Assembly (NCBI GenBank): GCA_021432635.1
Contig: MU270085.1
Location: 287,862 to 351,861, forward strand
Length of the DNA: 64,000 nt
From: Thozetella sp. PMI_491
Lineage: Eukaryota; Ascomycota; Sordariomycetes; Chaetosphaeriales; Chaetosphaeriaceae
Direction of reading: 5' to 3'
Position numbers and translations under genes: made by a program. Under the pieces are notes generated by a model. The model did not search any database, was not told where the DNA came from, and saw only the letters and a program-made list of their open reading frames with translations. Below, piece after piece: positions 2,716-64,000 of this stretch; the stretch's first letter is position 1, and every line of letters begins with the position of its first letter.

Positions 2716-4040
2716 CGAGCCCAGGACATAGATGTGTTTAAATCTTCCGCCCGGGCAACACGACTAGTTTCCAGTGCCTTGGTATCGGAAGACGGAGGAG
2801 CGCGGCGGGCAAACAGTCTATGGATGAGGGCTGCTCAAGCAGCCGGGCTCGGGGAACTAGGAATCTAAGTACCTGCTGTGAAATGTAAGACTCGTAGCAC
2901 AATCCCATAGTGTTGCCATTGGTTTATAACCTCATCTAGTATTCCCACTGCCGTACCTGTACATCTAATCCAATGGCTATTCGGCTCTGCCACGTACCTA
3001 TGTGAGGCGCGTAGATCGCGCATGTTTGTGCTCGGACGCCGTCAAAGCATGCAGCGCCTGTGCTATACGACCTGGCTAGACCACGGCTCTAGGCAGCCCA
3101 GTCTCTAGCTCCTGACCTTGATGAGGGAGTGAGGCTTGCCCTAACTCAGCGCCGCACAAGAATTGCTGCATTGGCGTGGAGACGAATTGAGATTAGATTT
3201 GTTTCTTAATTCTAGGATTGTCCCATGCTCTGGAATACAAGCCCTGTCAACCTTTTTTTCTAGAGACTCAAGCCGCCCAAGTCCATCCCTGGTAATCCCA
3301 GACCGTCCTCCTGGACATGGTATTTTGTTTGATGGCACTTTTTCTGTTCGTCCCAGCCCTTACCCCTCCGTGCTTCTCCACGCTCGTTGTTTGGAAAGCA
3401 TGAGATTATATCCATCCTGCCAGCTCACCAGACAATCCGAATTTGTCCTGGTCTAAACGCCAACACCCAGCAACCCAAGAGCGGTTACACTTCATCCCGC
3501 CTGAATCTCGCCAAAAACAAAGGGTATTGAACGATATGAAATGATCAAGTTGGCGCCGTCTAGCAACACAAACTAAAGGGGGTATGATAAGGGTGGGCTG
3601 CGCACCCCTGGGCGCATCCCGATCGGTGTCGTGGCGTTTTCTTAGTTCCCAAAGCAGATCTCCTGTTCCCGTAATTTGTTGCCACGCTCCCTGTCCCCAT
3701 TTCCCAAAACGCTCCTCCGTAATAATATGGTGTTGCCCGTGTACGTCCGTCGTGTAAGCCGCCGTTCCCTGCGCCATCTATTTTTTTGGTGTAAGACTTC
3801 GCCGAATGCACCTCCTGGTTTGCTGACAAAATGCCAGCCGCGAGAGAAAACAAAAGAGAAGCAGGAGCGCGTGTGTGGTAGTTGATTCCTAGACTCCAAA
3901 GGGGTATATCGAACAAGAAAGGGCCGTAAAAGGAGAATTATGTCTAAGAACTGTGGACAGAGATGCCCGCTTGCTGTCGGGCTGTTGCGCTGTTGCGCTG
4001 TCTGTATGCCCAAGATGTCGACTTCACTCGTCGACTCGCG
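2716..4040. other. Convergent intergenic region
   Basis: This lies between the 3' ends of the P450 (+) and the coiled-coil gene (-), so it should hold both 3' UTRs. A 123-codon ATG frame at 3777-3406 (-) lies in the presumed 3' UTR of the coiled-coil gene. It has no recognisable domain and I do not call it. I saw no RNA gene. Confidence 0.4.
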
Positions 4041-19560: not shown

Positions 19561-21814
19561 GCAAACAACCCATCCGGGGAAAAGGTCAAGGATTCGCAAA
19601 GCCGACAGATCGGGAAGCAGGCGAGCTAGGGCAAGGCAGAATGGAGGCAAACGGAGACACCTTCTGCTGATCAGCATGTCCCTTTCGATGGCCGATTTCT
19701 AATAATGACGGATTACACTCGCTCAGCGTACCCTCTCCACCGTCTTTTCGCCTCCAAGGGCCGCGGGAAAACCACACCGGCGCTTTCTAGAACAACAACG
19801 ATTCACGTCTGCCCTGCTCTCTGGGCCTTCCGGATCCAATCATGGGGAGCTACTATTATCGGACTGCTAGGCTGAGGTATGAAGGCCGGAGGCTAGGCCA
19901 GAAATGGAGAGGGAGAGGAGGCAAATGCCAAACGGACATCGGGGAAGGGGGGATCACGATGGTGAGGCTGTACTGTATGGATAGAGGAGGAGACATGCAT
20001 CCTCCCCCCCTATCAAACCCAGTTTCCACGTTGTACCTGGAGTACTGACCGAGGACGAAGTGGGTTTGGAGGGGCGCCAACCTCTAAAAGGCCTCACCAA
20101 AGCTTGCCCAAAAATCGCTCACATTGTGGCCCACGGCCACGTCTGTCTGTCTCTCTCCGTCTGTCGGGCCTTGCGGGGGGGGCTGATAAGCGTTGCCCGG
20201 CCTCGCAGGGCGAGCCGGTCGCCAGACCCACGGATTCCGAAAATATTTGATTCGGGGCCTAAGACTAGGTTTGGCCCTGCCGGGTGCGGCCGTCGGAGGC
20301 TTTGTTCGCATGGGGCCGGGGAAAGACGAGAGACAAGGAAAACAGGCTCTCGGCAGCACGCAGAACCAAGCCTTGTCCTCCGGAGAAACGGGGATATGGT
20401 CAATGGCATGTGTGCTGGGCAGCCGGAGACTAGACTACATAGTACCTCGATCGCTTCTGGGCGCTCGTCGCGAGGGCATCCACAGTAGAGCAGCGTCATC
20501 GACGGCCCCGCCGACCACGGCTCCGTCTCGTCCCCCGGTGCCACTCGAACCAATTCACACACCGTACTAAGGAACCGGTTTGTCATAGGGGTGGCGGGCA
20601 ATCAATGCGACGCGGGCACGAGTAATTGGTGAGTTGTATGTACAATGGGAAAAGCATGACGTGGGAAGAGAGAGTCAGGCGCTGTTGCATGCCAGCTGCT
20701 AGCACAACCGGTCTCTCTATCATCTCAACGCAGCCGTTTTCAGCGTCTCGCCCACCACACCCCCCCCCTTCCTTCCATGGTCCTCCCCAGTTGCCGCTCT
20801 CGTCCGCCTTGCATGATGCTTCGTCTCTTTCGAGAAATGCTGTCTGTCGTCAGCCTCTCTATTCCTCCTCCTACCTTGCAACCCTTACGAAAGTAGGAAG
20901 TGAAAGCCAGGGGCTCGACCCAGCTCGCATCCGGCCCTACTCTCGTACGCTAGCTGTAACTACTACTGCTACCACCGAACAGGACTCGTAGCATTGGCCT
21001 GCCTTGGTACGTAGCAGGCCAGCTACATAGTATGTTGGCATGTCCATGTACGTACAGAGGGTATGTACATAATGCATGCACGTTCTGTACTGTAGTTTGT
21101 GTCTCTGTAGCCTGTCAAGCCTGGTCCAGTCCCATGTGCCCGACTGCTGCTGCCCACCACATGCCCTCTCGTTTCCAAGGTAGGAAACGGCTAGCGTTCG
21201 CCCCTCTGGCGCTGGCTGAGGAGGGCCTCAGGGCCTCCTCGCTTGCCTCGTTAATAATACCACTGATCTAATACGGACCAATCCGCCAATGGCAACGGTC
21301 TGCACGATCGTGTTCATGCAGCCCGATCCAAGCGCCAGAAACAGGGTTTGTGGGGCTCCGAACCCTTGGATCGCCAAAGTACCCGATACGTTTCGAGATA
21401 CGTGCTTTGGACCAGTCGCCGCCCACCCGGCCGCTGGCGGAGACGCGAATGGAGCTCCAGTCGTCCGTCGTGCTGTACGTAGCAACGATAGCAACAGGAA
21501 CAGAAACAGCAGCAGCAGCAGCAGCAGTAGCAAAGAGGGCGGCGAGCAGGTCACGCTATGGGAGTTCATCTGAGTTGACCTTCAGGGACTGCTTCGTGAA
21601 CCAAGTAGAATACAGGGCGGCCTGTCGCACCGCTTTTCTTCGTGAAAACGTTCAAGGCAGGCTATCGCTCTCTTCCTGCTGCAGAGGAGATCATACAGCC
21701 CTTCCCAGGGCCGGACGGGGGTCGCCGCCAGGCACCGCCAGAGAGGTTGGAGGGTACGCAGGTACGATGCTCACCGACATTCATCTTACTTCCTCGCTCA
21801 CGCAGACGCCCTTG

Positions 21815-31815: not shown

Positions 31816-34800
31816 CTAGCTGGCTGCACCATTGGCGGGCTGTGTAACGCCGGCCGCCGCCGCGGCCTGCTGAGCAATCAAGGCTTGGTTCTCGGCTTGC
31901 TGGCAGACAGCGGTGATGATGTTCTGTTCATCGGCTGAGAGATGCGACGTCAAAGAAGCGTAGAACTGAGGTTGCTCCTGCTGGAGGGCTGCTATGGCGT
32001 TAGCGAGACCTGTCCGCTCTGCGCACCCGCGAGGGAGTGGGGGTTCAAACTCGTACCTAGCAGAGCTCCACGGAAGATGCCGTACGGCTCAATTTTGTCG
32101 AGGGGCGACTCGAGCAGGACGCTATCTTCGCCGAGCTCATCGTCTGAGTCGGTGCCGACAGCGCCAAACTTTTGTGCCTGCTCAAGGTTCTTGTCAGCGA
32201 TCCTGCGGACCTAGGACGTACGCGTGTCAACTCGACCGGCCGTGGGGATAATCTTGACCACTAAAAATCGATAGCCAGAGGGCGACTTACCTCCTCATTG
32301 AGAAACTCGAGGTATGCTGTGCTCTCGTCCTTGACATCTTGTCCACCATCGTCTTCGTTTTCTTCTTCGCCCGTCCAAGCAGACTCGTCTTCGTTCCACT
32401 CCTCGTCCTCATCGTAGCCGTATCCGGCTTCCAACTGGAAATCATCCTTGAGCGCCTCTTCACGATCTAATGTCGCGGGGAGAGTATGTTAGCAATGAGA
32501 CCAAACTAGTAGAACTGAGGAATTGCAGCGAAGGGTCTCTGGCGCCCAAGGGAGAGTGCCGGTGGGATTCAAGCGGGTTCAGCGTACTTTTCATGGCATT
32601 GGGTAAAGTGCTGAACAGCACTGTGATGCCCTGGAGCAAACGAGGCCACCCAACCGACACGCTGGCCGGGATCTGGTCAGCAGGGATGCGGAGCAAGGCC
32701 ACGATAGCGATGATGCAGAGCTTCTTGTCGTGCACCCGAGTGAAGGAGTCCATGCTCCCGAACCACAGGCTGAAGAACTTATTCGTCCAGCCCTTGGATT
32801 CGAGAATTTGGAGGGCCAGCAGCGGGTTGTAGTGGATCGCGTTGATAACCATCTCCATCAAGTGAATCTTGTATGACTTGATAGTGACCTCCTGCGTCGC
32901 GAGGACATTCATCGCCATCTCGATGAACCCGTGCACGCAGCTGTCGATGTGGCCCCGGAGGCTCAGCATCATGGCCTCGGCCAGTTTACAGGCACAGATC
33001 CTGTCCACACCGCCAACCTTGGCGTCGGTGAACATATCAGACACCATGGAGAAAAGTGCCTGCACGTATTCAGGCTTCTGGATGAGCTGGGGGACGCCGT
33101 ATTGCACGTAGTTGTCCAGCGCGGGGAGCATGTCCTCGAGATACAGTTCTGCGCCCGACTTAAATGTCGCGTGAACAAGCTCAAAGGCTTGCCACATCGT
33201 GTTGGAGATGGCCTTGGCGGCAAAAGTGCAGCTGTCGATTATCTCAAACACTTCGTTAAAAAGGTCTTGGGGCGGCCCGAGTTAGCTGCATGGGATCGTG
33301 ACGGGGGGTCAGACCGGGGAAGTGGGGCGGGGAGATTACCGTAGAGCTTGTTCTCCAGTGTTACCTGGATGACAGGCATCAAGATGGACTCGATGTGAAG
33401 AAGTACGTCCGGCGTGCTCTCGAGGGTGAGGATCAAGGTCCCAATGGTCTGCAACACGCCGAGCGCCGTAATGCTCTTATCGTCCAGGAAGTCGCCATAT
33501 TCGCCGTCGTCGTTTTGCTTGTCGTTCTTCTCGAGAAGCTCACGCACGATCCTGAGGTATGTGTCACGGAGCTGCTCGCTCAGTGCGACGGCGAATGGTG
33601 TCAATTCGCGAGCAAACACCTCAACAAAGTCCTCCATCACATTGGCCAGGGCGTCAATGTCGACCTCGTTCGCCAGCTTAAGCAGCTGCTGCATAATGGT
33701 TGGGATGCTCGTCTGCATGGTCGTCCGGATGACCTCGTGTCTGATCAGGGGCTGAAGGGCGAGCGCGGCCGTGACTCGGACCGGTAGAGCGGAATCCGCC
33801 ATACACTCAATGATGTGGCGATAGATGACGAGCAGGTTGGCGGGCTCCTTGAAGTTGAGCTGCTCGAACTTCTCGATCGTGTCGCAAGCGCGCGCCCTGA
33901 GGTAGCCTTCGGAGCTGGTGAAGTCGGGAAACACGTAGCGGATCAGGAAGTACTCGACCTGGTCGGCGATGGGCGACTTCTTGCCGAGGATGACGGGGGC
34001 CAGAATGCCAATCATGCGCAAGGCACCCTCTTTGGAAATATGGTTCTTCTCAGCTTCCGCTGCCTGTTCGTATTGGTTGACGACCTCGTTGATGAACTTG
34101 AGGATCTCAAACGTTTGTTTCCTCCTAGTCTTGGTGAGGGTGACCAGGAAGTTAGTCGCTGCCACATCGGGAGCCGCCACTTCTTCGTAGAAATTGAGCT
34201 TGCGATGCAGATACTCCTCCGGCTGATCCTCGAAATTCTCCAGGTCCTCCTCTGAGAGACAAATGATGGGGAAGATCAAGTGGGTGATGAGGTTGTTCAG
34301 GTGCCCCTTGAGGTGGCTCCACATATCCTTAGGCCGGATGCACTCGTCAAGAAACACTATCGTGTACGACAAGCACGGCCGGCTTAGCCATACCGTCTTA
34401 GACACCCACTTCTCGATCTCCTGGAGGTAATGCTTAAGAATCTCGGGCGCGATCTGGGCTGAGAACTCCTTAGCAAAACGAACTGCGACGTCATTGCTTG
34501 ACTTGTCCATAATGGTTGCAGGATTTCCGTGCCTGCAGACTCGGTCAGCTAGAGCAGTCCACTCATTCGCTCCCACGGGTTTCCCCTGTGCTTCTTGTCT
34601 TCCGCGGGGAGGCCGGCATACCTAATGTAGAGGCGGTTTAGGTTGAAGTAGGCCCACTTCTTCGCCTTCCACCAGTGGTGTCGCTCGCGCTCGGGGGGGT
34701 CGTCGTTCATGGCGCTGGCCGGGATGGCCTTGGATACGGTCTGCAAGAAGATGGTGCACCATCCAATGTTCACGGGACCGTCCCTGAGGAAGTCGGAGAG

Positions 34801-35893
34801 CTCGAGCTGCGAGACTATGTCAGCATACGCCCCCTAACACCCGAAACGCCTGCCCGACCGGGGGGGGGGCCGAGATCACCCACCCATGTGGCATGCTTGT
34901 AGGCCTTCAAGGCAATGTGCAGCATCTCGCCGGCCTCGTCGCTCTCTTGGTTGACCAACTCATTGCAGATGGCGAGCAGGCGGGGGAAGCTAGCCGCGAT
35001 GATCTTGTCAAAATGAGATCGATTCGCGCCGTCGCTCGCCTTGAACCGATACGCGCGGCAAACGGCTAGCAGGCATTGGAGACCAGCGAGAACCGAGGGC
35101 GCATCATTGGTGTTCAAAAGCTGGAGGGTGAAGTCCATAAAACTAGGCCATTGGTTGGGGAAGTCGAAGTGCAGGATCCGCTGGAGGATGGGGATGAGCT
35201 GCTGCCGCACCAAGGGCTGGGACACGGCTAGGATGGGCAGCAACCGGTCTCGAAAGCGGGCCTTTTCATCTTCGGGTATCACCGTCTCGGTCGGGTATTG
35301 CTCTGAGCGATTCCAAGCACGGTTGACGCGGTTCTTGAGGTAGATGACAGCTACGGACGCGTCAGTATTTTGACCGGGATGCCGGAGAGGGGGGAGGAGA
35401 GAAGGGGCAGGGGTCTCGTGTCGAGGCATGGCAGAGCGGCAAAGGTGAGCGGCAAGGGGCACAGGGCATACTCGAAAGCTGGAGGTTGACGTCTTGCTCC
35501 GACTGCAAGATCTCGAGGAGGATATCGGTGAAGCCGGCGTGCTCTTCGGCCTAGAAAGCGGGAGCAGGCCGCGATGCGTTAGCAAGCAGGGAGATGTGTG
35601 GCAGTCGGAGGACCGAGGGGTAGGCGGGCCCGGAAGGCGGTGACGGCGCTCCTCCCGAGAAAGAAAAACAAAGAAGCAGGCCGTGTGCGAGGGTGGCGGG
35701 AGCCGGTAGCCAGCGTGCGCAGGAGCGATCCACGGCAGGAGGGAGGCAGGCTGACGCGCAGGTGCGGGCGCGAAAGGGGGGGGGGGAGGGAGCCGGGACT
35801 GACCTGCTTGAGTTGAAGCTCAGCCCGTCTTCGAGTGTCGGTGTCGGCATCGAGGGTGCCAACGATGCAGTTCCGAATGGTAGCGGCATCCAT
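31816..35893 (-). CDS. Importin-beta family karyopherin, importin-7/8 type (Nmd5/Sxm1-like)
   Basis: These karyopherins bind RanGTP and carry cargo such as ribosomal proteins, TFIIS and Hog1-type MAP kinases through nuclear pores. I join nine exons: 35893-35804, 35550-35472, 35350-34884, 34806-34622, 34532-33340, 33265-32588, 32466-32291, 32210-32057 and 31991-31816. All junctions are GT-AG and in phase, giving 1065 aa, the usual size for the family. The N-terminus is an importin-beta N domain (RRRAELQLKQ, then YLKNRVNRAW). Typical importin-7 segments follow: FPNQWPSFMDF, KKWAYFNLNRLYIR, HLIFPIICLSEED, EVFEIIDSCTFAAKAIS and AELYLEDMLPALDNYVQYG. Near the C-terminus lies a D/E-rich stretch (YGYDEDEEWNEDESAW), as in the acidic loops of this class, and the end is an Ala/Gln-rich tail. 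Some of the nine exons are too short to stand out as open frames. Whether it matches yeast Nmd5 or Sxm1 cannot be settled from sequence alone. Confidence 0.9.
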
Positions 35894-46225: not shown

Positions 46226-48365
46226 TCATCCAAACTTCAACTTGTTTTTTTGCTCTGGACCGGGCTTGCTGGCCTTTCCCGGTCGCCTCGGAGGTGCAGC
46301 TGCACTTTGCTGCCCGCTGCGACGCGAGGTGGATGCGGAAGCAGCAGCAGTACCAGTGGCCAAAGTCTGGTTGGCAAATCTCGGTCTGACACGTCCTTCT
46401 TCCTCCTGGAGGTCTTTGGCAAAATGCCAGTCCTGGTGGCTTTGGACCGCCTCCGGGCCCTCGAGCCTCGCCGAGCAACGCGAGCACACGCCGTCAATGA
46501 TTGGTGTCTGCTGGTATTTGTCCTCGAGTCGACCCCAAGATGCATCTTCTAGTATGGCTGACATGCTTGCGCCCCGACCCTTCTCGGACGCATGGCCCAT
46601 TTCCGGCCGCTTGTCCCTCAACGTTTCACCGCCATTGCCCGAGGCAGTAGCATCGTTGCTGCCCAACGCCCAAGCTGGGTCTGGAGAGCCCTCACCCCTT
46701 GTGAAAAAGCGGCGTATCCCTTCTTCATGCACCCGCCGTCGTTTCTCGGGCGGCGGTTGGTCGATCTTCCTTCTTGCAAGCTCCTTGGAGCCCGAACCGA
46801 GCTGCTCGGCCTCCTTTCCCTTGACTAGGAAGGCGCCGATGCCCATGTTGCCCGTGATGCCAGACTCGAAGCCGGTGACGCTGAGGCTGAGGTTGTTACA
46901 CGGCCACACCTGCCCTTCCAGAACAATCTGGCTCAGAAGATGCTTTGCTAGCTCAAACAGGGCCTGTTCGTCTAGTACACTGCCCTGGGGAATGGGGCTC
47001 GATCGCGAGCGCGTCGTCCGGGCTTGGCGGTGATGTAGATTGATGGTCCTGGGCCGGCGCCTGTTCTCAAGGATGCCTTCTTCGACCAATCGGGAGAAAA
47101 TGTCGGCCGAAAAGATGCGCAACCACTTGACCCCATGTTCAAAGCTGCGAATCTCAGGGCGGAAGGACTTCGCCGACAACATTGACTTGATCTGAGTGCG
47201 AGAGTTCACTTGGCTATGGTCGATGCCACGCATGGTATTCCACATCCAGACGCCAGTGTCGTCTCCGAGCCTAGACTTTAGCTGCTCGACGGAGACCTCG
47301 AGGAGATCTTTGACGGAGTCGGTGCCGAAGATCTCGCAGACCTGCGCTCCAAGCTTGCCGCCCAGGTTCCGGATCTTGGTGGCGGAAAAGCCGGCTAGAA
47401 AGGGCTGTATTGCCCGGTTGCGTATGACGGTTTGTCGATCAGGCTTAGTGTAGCCACTGCCCAACTTGCTGAGCATTTTGTTACTGGCTATACCTCCTGA
47501 GCACGTGTACTTAAGCTTCTCCCTAACGGCCGCCCTCAGGCCTCGGATAATTTCACTGCCGATCAGGACAGCCACGTCGTCCCAATCAGGGTCCTCGACC
47601 TCTGCACTCTCGTCGGCAAGGTCCACCAAAGCGTCAGCTTCCCAGTCCAGGGCGCTGATGGGGGGCATAGGAAGCGTTGCAGCGGAGTCGTCGCCGGGAG
47701 GCGGCCGTGACAGCTCGGGAAACCGCTCCAGGAGGATTGCGTGGACTTGAGCCGAGAGATCCACAAAGACCTCGTCGATGCCAGCCTTCTCCACCCTTTG
47801 GAGGCCCGGCGGGAGGTGGGACTGGATCACATCCATTATCTTCCTAGATTCGAGCCGGTAGTAGTCCAGGGACACCTTGTGAGTTGCAATATTGATGGCG
47901 GCGTCCTCGTGATATCCCCACCGATCGTCCCCCTCTTTCCACGTTGCGACATGCTGGGCGACCAGTTTAGGGCACAGCTTCTTCGCCTCCGTCACGGTAC
48001 ACATACGGCTAATGCCAAATTTACGTGCAGGGTAATTAACGGCAATGAGGCCTTGCCTTGAGATGTCCCCGTCCACGGTCAGCTGGGCCCCTTCGACCAT
48101 CTCAGTTCCTGAAGAAGAGCCTAAGCAAACACGGGCTAGCTCACCACTGCTGCACGGCGAGGGGCTGGTCCTCGGGCGTGCCGAGACGAATCATCTCACA
48201 CTGGGCATAGAAGCAATCCAAGTCGACGTGGCTGATCACCCTGAGGGGACATGATGCATTGTACGAGGCCAGCTGCGACAGATGGCGGTAGGTAAAGCGC
48301 GAGCGCTTGGCTCCGTGGCCCTCCGCAGGCGACGACTCCCGGAAGGTTTCAGGTGGTGACGGCAT
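46226..48365 (-). CDS. RAD30: DNA polymerase eta (Rad30), translesion Y-family polymerase
   Basis: Pol eta copies past UV-induced pyrimidine dimers in the nucleus and is recruited by ubiquitinated PCNA. Two exons, 48365-48145 and 48056-46226, give 683 aa. I set the acceptor at 48057/48056 because it restores the family sequence PLAVQQW-QGLIAVNYPAR; the other acceptors in the intron would add an unrelated peptide. Catalytic residues are visible: D48 and D50 in SHVDLDCFYAQCEM, SLDYYR at 136-141, and D168/E169 in IDEVFVD. The little-finger region follows, with MLSAKSFRPEI and SLSVTGFESG. The C-terminus has a UBZ3-type ubiquitin-binding zinc finger, C598-x2-C601-x12-H614-x3-H618, then a basic tail ending in KNKLKFG that might hold a PCNA- or nuclear-import signal. 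All expected parts are present, so it should be functional. Confidence 0.93.
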
Positions 48366-51956: not shown

Positions 51957-51963
51957 TATAAAG
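51957..51963 (+). promoter_or_regulatory. TATA box upstream of the acidic Cys-knuckle locus
   Basis: TATAAAG lies about 215 nt before the first open codon of the acidic frame. It is followed by a C/T-rich leader (about 52045-52105). The small Cys-knuckle gene at 61.4 kb has the same arrangement, with its TATA about 190-200 nt before the ATG. Confidence 0.4.
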
Positions 51964-52173
51964 TCATGGCAAAGGCTCATGATTGTCGGCTCTGACTCTT
52001 GACTTCAGCTCGGGGCATCTGCGCAGTCATTCGAGACAGCCTATCCACACTTTGCCTTCCCTTACCCCTCTCCTCGTCTCCCTTCCTCTCCTGCCCCTTC
52101 GAGAGCCAGCGGGCCTCGATCCCCATATCACCATTGTACTTGTCATAAGACGTGAGGCACTTCCGAAATGTAG

Positions 52174-52608
52174 GCCCCCCACCTCTACCGTGCTCTGCCG
52201 CCCTCGCATGCTCAACTGTATGAGGGTAGGGCGGATGAGAACAATGACCACTCCGGCAAACCCGACACCTCGGTCCTCGACCCTGAGCCTACTGAAGACA
52301 GGAACGACGATGTCGACGAGGACGAAGTAGACGAAGAGGACGACGAGAATGACGAGGACGGAGAGGACGACGAGGACGAAGACGCTGACGAAAGGGAGTT
52401 GGACCCGGAAGACGAGGAGTTGGACCCGGAGGACGAGGATGTGGACCAAGCACCCCCGCATGAGGATCCAACACCAAGGGCAGGGGAATGGTACTGTTGT
52501 AATGGCGAAAGCAATACTTGGCACTATAACACCTATGCGACGACCGGGACGGAGTACCCAGCCTGTACGACGTGCCAACACAGGTTCTGCGGGACGTGTA
52601 AGGAGTAG
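52174..52608 (+). CDS. Acidic protein with C-terminal Cys/His knuckle; start unresolved, possibly a pseudogene
   Basis: The frame is open from 52174, after a TAG, to the stop at 52606-52608. It encodes a long D/E-rich region (DVDEDEVDEEDDENDED and onward, about 52300-52450) with repeated DPE units. The C-terminal module is EWYCC, followed by C-x2-C-x-H-x2-C-x2-C (codons at 52564, 52573, 52579, 52588 and 52597) and KE. No in-frame ATG precedes the acidic region; the first is at 52399, leaving only 69 residues. Either a short 5' exon joins in, or the start is lost. The first knuckle reads CCNG where the related gene at 61.4 kb has CCKC, so one Cys is missing. The zinc-binding role is inferred from Cys/His spacing; no function is known to me. 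Confidence 0.5.
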   Translation, partial: APHLYRALPPSHAQLYEGRADENNDHSGKPDTSVLDPEPTEDRNDDVDEDEVDEEDDENDEDGEDDEDEDADERELDPEDEELDPEDEDVDQAPPHEDPTPRAGEWYCCNGESNTWHYNTYATTGTEYPACTTCQHRFCGTCKE

Positions 52609-55269: not shown

Positions 55270-56667
55270 CTATCTCGGGCGTTCAGTCTGTCGGTCAGGT
55301 GGCTCGGGGAGCCCGTATCTTGCTCTGAGTTGGTAGTATAGCGGCCCCATTTCATAGAAACTTTCGTTATTTTCGTAACCCACGCAGGGTGACATCTTGA
55401 CAGGGAGGAGCCAATCAAAGGGGGTGTTTCCCATGACCGACTTCCAGTTGCGATACGGTCCCAAATCCCACGGATTCTCGCCCATATCGGTCCTTACGAT
55501 GGCATAGCTCCGTGTGGCCAGCATATCCCGCGCGGATAACTCAGCTGTTTGGGTAACATGCGGTGGGTGCGGAAGCGGGTAGGTAATGGTGCTGTACCCA
55601 GCTCGCGGGGGCGTATCTCGCGGTATCCGGATGGCTAGCTGGTGAACAATGGACCTCTGCCTAAGCACGTCCACATTGGTGAGATTAATCAGGGCGTAGC
55701 GCATCGAAGTCAGTGTCATTGAGCTCGTAAATAGGCCGAAGAAGCCGGCGATCACAAGGATGGCGACCAAGTCCCCGGGCATAGGTAAACCTTCATCTAG
55801 CATTCCCTTGAGCGAGAGGGCTGTCGCGGTCAAGGTTACGATGCAAAAAAGCGACGTATAGAAGACAAATTGCACAAAGAACTTGAAGGCTGCAGGCGAA
55901 AGGGTCAGTGGGAAAAGTTCTCGGGGCAGTCGGCGGCGGCGCCGCCTAGGGCCTCCACTCACAGGTTTCAGAGACAATACCACCAACCCAAGGGCAATAG
56001 TGGTCCATCTTGCGCACGCATCTATTGAGCTCTCGACTGTGGTGCGCACGATCTGGCTTCCACGCGCGGCAGGCGCTGCAGTAGCGAGGCCGCCCGTCCG
56101 TATCGCATACGAAGACGTCCTTGTTGTAAAACTGCTCCAGGCCAGGGCTGTCGGGATCAAGGTCGGGGTTGTTCTGGGCCCCCGAGGCGGAATGGTCATC
56201 GGTGTCGGGGCCGGGGTCGTACTGGAGGGCTTCGATATCACCGCTCGCCGGGCCACCCGATTCGGTTCGGGTGCGCCTGGTGCGCACACTGCGACGAACC
56301 TTGGAGCGAGCTTCCTCGGCGCCGGGGCCGAGTGGCACCAGCCCCGGGTTGGTCTTGATGACCAGAAGGAGACGTAGGTAGGTAGCCATCATAGCGAGCA
56401 AGAAGACGAAGAAGAGGGCGAGGATGGCTGCGGCGATGCCGCCTCGGTGTTGGAATTTGAGGAACCATTGTACTGCCGGACCTAGTGTCAGCTCCGGTCG
56501 GGACGTCTCACTTGAACAAGGCGTAGGAATCCGGCCCGGGGCACGTTACCGCAGGCACGTCTGACGACGACATAGGTGGCAAAGCCAACACAGCCGGCGA
56601 GCACCAGTGGAATGATTCGCGTGGCCCAGCGCGTAGAGGCGCGCACGCTGCTTGCCCTCGAGGTCAT
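55270..56667 (-). CDS. PFA5: DHHC-type palmitoyltransferase, Pfa5-like
   Basis: DHHC enzymes attach palmitate to Cys residues of membrane proteins through an acyl-enzyme intermediate. Three exons, 56667-56550, 56481-55963 and 55889-55270, join in phase to give 418 aa. Transmembrane segments lie at about residues 18-35 (IIPLVLAGCVGFATYVVV) and 54-72 (GIAAAILALFFVFLLAMMA), and two more follow the catalytic domain (FYTSLFCIVTLTATAL; LVAILVIAGFFGLF). The Cys-rich domain runs from about 165 to 205: RYCSACRAWKPDRAHHSREL, then RCVRKMDHYCPWVGGIVSET. The active-site motif is DHYC (199-202) rather than DHHC, and HHS replaces the usual HHC. Both changes are known in the fungal Pfa5 group, which is why I assign it there. 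Between the second membrane segment and the Cys domain is an acidic, Pro-rich insertion (about 100-155). It ends in a soluble tail with a PFDWLLPV segment. Confidence 0.9.
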
Positions 56668-61197: not shown

Positions 61198-61205
61198 TAT
61201 ATAAG
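61198..61205 (+). promoter_or_regulatory. TATA box of the small Cys-knuckle gene
   Basis: TATATAAG lies 199 nt before the ATG at 61397. It is followed by a C/T-rich leader with repeats of CCATCCTTTA at about 61286-61316. This is a strong core-promoter candidate and supports the tiny gene downstream. Confidence 0.6.
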
Positions 61206-61396: not shown

Positions 61397-61713
61397 ATGC
61401 CGAGGACCAAAATCGTCTACTACTGCGTAGGATAACCCCTCCCTCCTCCCCCCCCTTTTTTATCGTTTTCTTTTCCTTCTCCCCTAGTCGAGGTCCTTGG
61501 CTTACCGATATATAGTGCAAATGTGGCGAGGGCCCGTTCAGTGCCGAGGGCTATGCCACATGCATATACTGTGAACATGAACTCGGCTGTATCGACTGCA
61601 CAACGGAGCGCGTACGGGTCAGTTATTCTGTGGATGGGCTTTGGACATCTGGACTTACTTCTAGCTACAGGCGTAGCCAGAATGCTCTTCACAAGCGTAT
61701 GCCTGGCGCATAA
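61397..61713 (+). CDS. Small Cys-rich zinc-knuckle protein, two exons
   Basis: Exon 1 (61397-61426) encodes only MPRTKIVYYC. A GTAGGA donor, a pyrimidine-rich intron of 89 nt with CTTACC near its end, and the acceptor ATATATAG lead to exon 2 (61516-61713). The joined protein is 75 aa. Splicing completes a first knuckle C10-C11-K-C13, followed by GEGP and then C26-x2-C29-x-H31-x3-C35-x2-C38, which could bind one or two zinc ions. Small fungal proteins with a YCC-x-C-x-xGP start and a paired CxxC/H knuckle are familiar to me as uncharacterised Pezizomycotina proteins; no function is known. The start context is good (GTCAAGATGCC) and a TATA box lies upstream. A further possible intron (GTCAGT at 61618 to CTACAG at 61670) would end the protein at a TAG (61674-61676) after 45 residues. 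The acidic frame near 52.2-52.6 kb carries a related module. Confidence 0.65.
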
Positions 61714-64000
61714 CTCCTACTTTTCCATGCCCCCGTCGCGTCCTACATCCACGATGGTTATCGTGGGACTTTTAGCATGGCAACCGCTAGGATCAATCTC
61801 GCCCTGCGCATAGCCGCCACACAGCTACGAAACGCTCGATCTTGGAGTGATCCTTCATGGATCCAGAACGGCCTGCATTGGTACGATTGCACCGCACGGA
61901 GTTCGGTGGACTTGATGGCTTTCCTTGGGTGGTTCCTATCTTTCGGGAGTGGGTACGGGTTCGCTTTTTGGACGCAATACGAATCACGGTCGGACGAACG
62001 AGCGACAACAGCAGCAGCAACGACAACAGTGTTTCGGGTTACTCTTTCTCTCCTTCTCGTCACAAGATTCTCAGGGCTCGCGCCCACGAAGACTAGGGAT
62101 TGGCGCCATGTGTAGTGTATGACTAGGGTTATTCCCGCGGCCACTGTTTTGACACTTCTTCCCTCCATCTCACGCTCATTCCCTGCCTCTCTATCTTTCC
62201 TATTTTCTCTTGCTTTACGTCTCTCTCTATCTTTATCTAGCTTAACTTCGTTCGTTCCTGCATCATCGCGTCTTAGCTTACCACGCTTGTCTCCATCGCT
62301 CCCCAATGACAGTGACTTGTCCCTGAATCCACTCGTGACTTGTAGGCCTCCGGGGCGTTCGGGGGCGTTAGTTCCTAGAAATCAGCGCAACTCAACCTAG
62401 GCCGCCTCGTCGGGCTTCTCCAGTGGGGAAAGGGGGGTTCTTTTCTCTCGTTGCTATACTAGCTAGCCCTTACCAGTCTTGTCTATGGCTTTGGAAAAGA
62501 GCCTAGACTAAAGCATTGCGGTCTAGTCATCCGCCGCGTTTTTCCGGGCGTTCGTCCCATGAGGCGTGGGTTGGGGTTTCGCCACTCGGAATATATCGTG
62601 CCCACCCACCACCCCATGCTTCCTTCCCCCCCCTGGCTCCCGGAGGGGGTCCCCACTGCTTCCGTGCGTTGGGTTTTCTCCCAGGCGTGGAGGCGCCCAG
62701 CACCGCAGTTGTGCATCGCCTAGTAGCACGCCACCTCTTCCCACCTGAAACTGGAGGCGGCTAGAATGCTACCCGGCAAGGCTGGGCCGCAGCCGGGGTC
62801 GCAGACCACCACCGACCACGGCCACGACGCCGCACCCGTAAGCCGCGCCGGGGGAGGACCGAGAGCACATACTATGGCGGCATAGAGATACACAGGCCCG
62901 CCCGATTCGTGTTCACGCTCGTTGCCTGACGAGCTTGGGCACGCGGAGAGCATGCGCAAAGGCGCATAACCCACCGCGCAAGCCTGCGGGAGGTTACATC
63001 CGTTTCGGTCAGACGGAATCCCATGACGCACGGGACGACGGACAATGGTTTGCACGTCGGGAACTGGGCACCGGTGGGATGTGTGCCTTGAGCTTGCTCG
63101 GATTCTCCTCGACTAGCTCAATGTCGACTGGTAGTGCAAATAACCGAGATCACGGCAGGGTTGACTAGGCGGTGCTACGGCCGCTACTGGCCAGGCGCGC
63201 TTTGCGGCTGCCAGCGGGCATGGCCTGCCATCTTACATGCAGGCTATACCCGACAGAAGGGTAGGGAACAAAGAAGAAATTTGGCAGGGCGGGCGCACCC
63301 AACCGACGCAGTGTATTCCATCTACCTCGTTTCGCTACCGAGCCGCTCCCGGGTACCGAGTTTGTTTCGTCCCTTTGCGCGCCCCGGCGGTATTTTTTTG
63401 CACTTTCCCCTCTCGATATGAAATGGAGGGGAGGGGATGGGGCGAGATGGGGGGACGGGCTGCTAGCCTACCGTTGGGAAGGGCTCCCGAGGCTCTGGAT
63501 TCGAGGGACAGGGGGGGCGGAGGGTCTCCCAGGGAGGCAGGTCAAGACTGTCAAGTGAGCAGGTGTGGGTGGCCTCGCAGCTCCCAAGAAACTTTTTTTT
63601 GCGCACTTGGATCGACGCTTGGTGGCGTGGACCTGCACTAAAGCCTCAGCTGAAGGAGGGAAGCTGCCAAAATGAATATCCCTCACGGCCACTCACTTAC
63701 TCCCCGACACACCGCATCCACCACAAAGAGCCGAGGTTGGGAACCATCACAGACGGGCCGGGCGACGGCCAAATAGAAAAAGAGAGAGAGAGAGAGCCAA
63801 GACAGAGAGAGCGCGCGCGAGAGAGAGAGAGAGATGCAGGTCCTCGTACGGAGGGGGGGGGGCGTTTACAGAGGCCAGTAAGGTAGGCGTGCCTCTACGG
63901 AATAACCTCGAGGCTTAGTAGGTACCTACCTGTTAGTTAGTGGGCGTATGCTTCGGGGCGCGCCCTCCTCCTCCGCTTCAGCTGCCCAAGAAACCCCCCC
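61714..64000. other. Intergenic DNA at the right edge
   Basis: Overlapping frames up to 182 codons lack domains. The region holds a C/T-rich stretch near 62150-62260, a GA repeat near 63780-63834 and a TAGGTACCTACC palindrome-like motif near 63917-63930. I see no partial gene running off the end. Confidence 0.35.
63780..63834. repeat. GA dinucleotide-rich microsatellite
   Basis: AG runs are interrupted by CCAAGAC and by a GCGCGCGC block. They lie in intergenic DNA. Confidence 0.8.

Follow-up and report, generated by a model that had tools for sequence, protein, structure and literature searches.

The window analysed here, one stretch of 64 kb, carries on its minus strand an importin/exportin-like gene spread over several frames (32463-35819), a gene whose product resembles DNA polymerase eta and has a UBZ zinc finger (46229-48190) and a DHHC palmitoyltransferase gene (55273-56545) that is likely split by a 73-nt intron. 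A kinase gene is present as well, and no non-coding RNA or tRNA was found in the 64 kb. Gene structure and the genes named here suggest that the window is fungal. On the plus strand lie two stretches that encode a cysteine knuckle, here called locus A and copy B, whose features are collected in Table 1.

Table 1 Features of locus A and copy B, and of a phage stretch (L004, outside the window) with a similar layout.
Feature	Coordinates	Strand	Details
TATA-type box, possible	61198-61205	+	TATATAAG; 199 nt 5' of ATG 61397
Exon 1 (A)	61397-61426	+	10 codons, MPRTKIVYYC; ATG 61397
Intron 1 (A), predicted	61427-61515	+	89 nt, phase 0; GTAGGA...CTTAC...ATATAG; GT 61427-61428, AG ends 61515
Exon 2 (A)	61516-61617	+	CKCGEGPFSAEGYATCIYCEHELGCIDCTTERVR; starts TGC AAA TGT
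Intron 2 (A), likely	61618-61670	+	53 nt, phase 0; GTCAGT...CTTAC...CTACAG; alternative donor 61612
Exon 3 (A), predicted	61671-61676	+	Ala codon, then TAG stop; completes the 45-aa product
TATAAAG	51957-51963	+	217 nt 5' of the copy B open frame
Copy B	52174-52608	+	open frame of 144 codons, no ATG; acidic stretch followed by EWYCCNGESNTWHYNTYATTGTEYPACTTCQHRFCGTCKE before the stop; motif scan
Cys part of copy B	52495-52605	+	CC pair to last codon, frame unbroken; motif scan
Phage 54-aa protein (L004)	3525-3689	minus	W-C-C-C-G-C ... C-P-K-C-x-H-x3-C-x2-C

Proposed exons and introns of locus A

The preliminary description of locus A had proposed an ATG, ten codons, a GT-AG intron and an exon with a Cys-rich frame, and all of these were reproduced from the sequence, as were both the 75-aa and the 45-aa translations. 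The box that it placed 199 nt upstream was confirmed as TATATAAG, starting at 61198, which is one of six plus-strand matches in the window to TATATAAG, TATAAA or TATATAA. The ATG stands in the context TCAAGATGCC, with an A at -3, and is preceded by a stretch that by eye is pyrimidine-rich and leader-like. Exon 2 encodes CKCGEGP and then C-x2-C-x-H-x3-C-x2-C. Two statements had to be revised: exon 2 is recognisable by itself, contrary to the claim that neither exon is, and intron 1 lies outside the knuckle, where the pair that it does split is the CC preceding C-x2-C-x-H.

Once intron 1 is removed, YYC abuts CKC; the CC pair thus appears only in spliced A. For the acceptor at 61516, we searched 700 nt upstream for single ATG...GT exons with intron lengths of 40-300 nt. 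Three in-frame options were found, and the one that starts at 61397 ends in YYC and restores CC. When the same 700-nt stretch was subjected to order-2 shuffling, any option ending in [WFY]-x-C occurred in 28 of 3000 shuffles and some option ending in C in 9.1%. In copy B the aromatic-x-CC (W-Y-CC) is uninterrupted, and this, together with the rarity of the join, is the best evidence that the intron 1 splice is real.

The splice signals themselves are less persuasive. Scored with donor frequencies from Fusarium, as given in an excerpt of PMC5677156, the intron 1 donor GTAGGA reaches -1.24, a level matched by 18.6% of the GTs on both strands of the window, and is weak by that measure. The would-be branch site of both A introns, CTTAC, belongs to a minor class of about 4-5% in Fusarium according to the same excerpt. 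An alternative acceptor for intron 1 at 61487, 28 nt before 61515, was rejected, as the exon following it would leave the Cys frame and as it lies upstream of CTTAC. A rule devised after A had been seen (GT[ACG]NG, CT[AGT]AC, YAG) lists 41 candidate introns on the plus strand of the window, including both A introns, and five further donor-acceptor pairs at the place of intron 2. The best-fitting intron of the DHHC gene (55962-55890), chosen among eight frame-compatible pairs, has GTGAGT, CTGAC and CAG, which suggests that the host uses ordinary fungal signals and that those of A are weaker.

Intron 2 determines the length of the product. By the excerpted Fusarium frequencies its donor at 61618 scores 1.68, a level met by 4.8% of the GTs in the window, and the alternative donor at 61612 scores -0.56 (14.2%). 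If intron 2 is left unspliced, the frame continues to a stop at 61714-61716 and 61397-61713 reads as 75 aa; if it is removed, the 45-aa product ends in RVRA, seven residues past its last Cys. We prefer the shorter reading, since intron 2 ends the protein near the last Cys and copy B likewise stops two residues past its own. The earlier proposal of a spliced Cys-knuckle microprotein gene stands as the best reading of the locus and gains support from the second motif copy in the window; three exons encoding 45 aa are more likely than the two exons and 75 aa proposed with it.

Rarity of the motif and its second copy

The knuckle C-x2-C-x-H-x2-3-C-x2-C occurs twice in the 64-kb window, compared with three occurrences in order-2 Markov simulations totalling 9.6 Mb (both strands), and was absent from 60 windows of 64 kb simulated at order 1. 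The fuller exon 2 pattern, C-x-C-x2-G-P-x4-14-knuckle, is found once in the window and not at all in the 9.6 Mb of order-2 sequence. A loose knuckle match at 21064 contains a stop and was excluded from these counts. The frequency of the knuckle in the window is well above chance.

The second copy of the motif, copy B, has its knuckle at 52564, about 9 kb from A on the same strand, and its Cys part reads EWYCC...CTTCQHRFCGTCKE followed by the stop. It carries a Gly where the third Cys is expected, and its distance from CC to knuckle is seven residues longer than in A. There is no in-frame ATG. With AG acceptors at 52173 and shortly beyond it, the coding sequence of copy B may begin further upstream in another exon; copy B either needs such an exon or is a relic. 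BLASTP, run on A and B as a single pair, gave an E of 0.010 and an alignment of 33 columns that includes a gap of 7 residues. The alignment score was reached by 98 of 5000 full shuffles and by 823 of 5000 shuffles in which Cys and His were kept fixed, so the likeness of the two sequences beyond Cys/His is not significant. Copy B is therefore a second copy of the motif, and may be a true paralogue of A.

Database relatives and rival readings

Neither A nor B matches a Pfam-A family above the curated cut-off. The sole Pfam match listed for A is DUF5374, obtained with the 75-aa product at E 0.12 and 12.5 bits, where the cut-off is 25; copy B has no match up to E 0.1. PDB searches by sequence and with a two-row profile returned weak, unrelated-looking matches, none of them convincing; the last row of the copy B list is TRAF3 (2ecy, E 9.3), an entry that we take to be the RING domain of that protein. 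Judged by title, none of the literature matches listed was recognised as describing the motif, which may yet be published.

A pattern of W-x-CC-x-C...knuckle retrieved 10 viral stretches and 11 from a prokaryotic genome collection, the latter scanned with this first pattern only; two stricter GP patterns found no stretch each in the viral collection. When the 21 loci were translated, 15 contained the pattern in one frame with stops allowed, and it was missing from the remaining six (L006, L013, L014, L016, L018 and L019). L005 and L009 are the same stretch. Judged by eye, L004 alone among the 15 resembles a genuine protein, and the others resemble Cys-rich wrong frames, several with internal stops. 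With the patterns used, neither viral nor prokaryotic contigs yielded a convincing relative, and a relative whose CC is split by an intron, as in A, would be hidden from all of them.

We considered whether A and B could be decaying members of an older Cys-knuckle family that no longer make a functional protein. The missing ATG and third Cys of copy B would fit such decay, as would the weak donor and rare branch sites of A; neither motif is broken by a stop, however, both preserve the spacing of the knuckle, and the acceptors at the start of copy B may join it to an upstream exon. We regard this reading as unlikely. Rather more doubtful is the idea that exon 2 encodes no stand-alone microprotein but the final domain of a larger protein with several exons. 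The architecture of copy B, with its knuckle after a long acidic stretch, points that way. Against it, the upstream search left just three in-frame starts, one of which restores CC, and the ATG of that one is preceded by the TATA-type box and the leader-like stretch.

An open frame that arose by chance, with no gene at all, would account for the shortness of locus A, its weak donor and the want of a convincing database relative. It would have to produce a pattern that did not occur once in 9.6 Mb of simulated sequence, and to do so in a window that contains a second copy of the motif; we consider it slightly more improbable still than the multi-exon protein.

As a whole, locus A is best explained as a small spliced protein-coding gene for a zinc finger that acts as an intracellular binding module, a reading to which we assign a probability of roughly 0.55. 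The gene itself is probably real and spliced and encodes a cysteine-rich, putatively zinc-binding protein of 45 residues. What the analysis shows directly is the sequence, the frame, the rarity of the motif and the presence of its second copy; splicing, zinc binding and the binding role are inferred.

Proposed product and comparison with known zinc fingers

In the proposed scheme, locus A would belong to a fungus-like nuclear genome and code for a small protein, and excision of intron 1 would fuse YYC to CKC within a chain of 45 residues (or 75, should intron 2 prove false). The spliced product offers seven Cys and one His as potential ligands (C10, C11, C13, C26, C29, H31, C35 and C38). One or two zinc ions could be bound by the pairs C10/C13, C26/C29 and C35/C38 together with C11 and H31, which would give a compact finger. 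AlphaFold models of the unspliced pieces, run with two-row alignments, were of low confidence (pLDDT 49.1 and 53.3). An intracellular role is most likely, as no sign of a secretion signal was seen by eye, and the product would most likely serve as a small zinc-stabilised module that binds protein; binding of nucleic acid is less likely. Genes this short and split within their diagnostic motif are easily overlooked by annotation pipelines. If real, locus A would serve studies of spliced microproteins in fungi as a simple test case, and the A and B pair could seed a profile.

The RING finger core is C-x2-C-x(9-39)-C-x(1-3)-H-x(2-3)-C-x2-C, followed by a final C-x2-C pair for the cross-brace. Locus A, with C10-x2-C13-x15-C29-x-H31-x3-C35-x2-C38, matches the first six RING ligands in both order and spacing, and copy B reads C-x-H-R-F-C-x2-C. 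A differs in its additional C11 and C26, and copy B departs from the core, with Gly in place of the second ligand (the C13 position). In both the final C-x2-C is absent: neither product of A, whether of 45 or of 75 aa, has a Cys beyond C38, and none follows the last Cys of B. Because this last pair is missing, we do not file A as a RING finger, and no Pfam RING match is listed for A or B. It is conceivable, though doubtful, that A and B represent an uncharted fungal family with a shortened RING-like core (the first six ligands) plus a CC pair, occurring either as a bare 45-aa microprotein, with CC formed only on splicing, or as the C-terminal part of an acidic protein.

The retroviral-type CCHC knuckle is C-x2-C-x4-H-x4-C, and A, with C-x2-C-x-H-x3-C, falls outside that definition. 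So does the 45-aa product with respect to the RanBP2-type finger, W-x-C-x2-4-C-x3-N-x6-C-x2-C, as it contains neither the W nor the N, and no match of that type is among those listed from Pfam. The preliminary description likened A to uncharacterised small Cys-rich proteins of fungi, and the pattern W-x-C-C-x-C-x2-G-P ... C-x2-C-x-H-x2-C-x2-C, which occurs in small fungal proteins, agrees with this: A shares aromatic-x-CC-x-C-x2-GP and the knuckle, and B shares W-Y-CC and H-x2-C. A differs from them in having Y for W and H-x3-C, and B in lacking the third Cys and GP.

In layout alone, A also resembles archaeal micro-proteins of the HVO_0758 type, as presented in an excerpt of PMC10716476, being under 70 aa and a stand-alone finger with paired Cys. 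HVO_0758 (<70 aa) differs in its two C(P)XCG motifs with four essential Cys, according to the same excerpt. The phage protein L004 has a Cys/His layout similar to that of A and differs in its lysine-rich tail and in its contig, which carries a phage-type DNA polymerase gene. For the 54-aa protein a single PHROG match is listed, at E 0.06. This likeness is probably convergent, and it suggests that such Cys/His layouts arise independently. Locus A looks like one of the small Cys/His zinc-finger-like proteins, a modest addition to them rather than something radically new.
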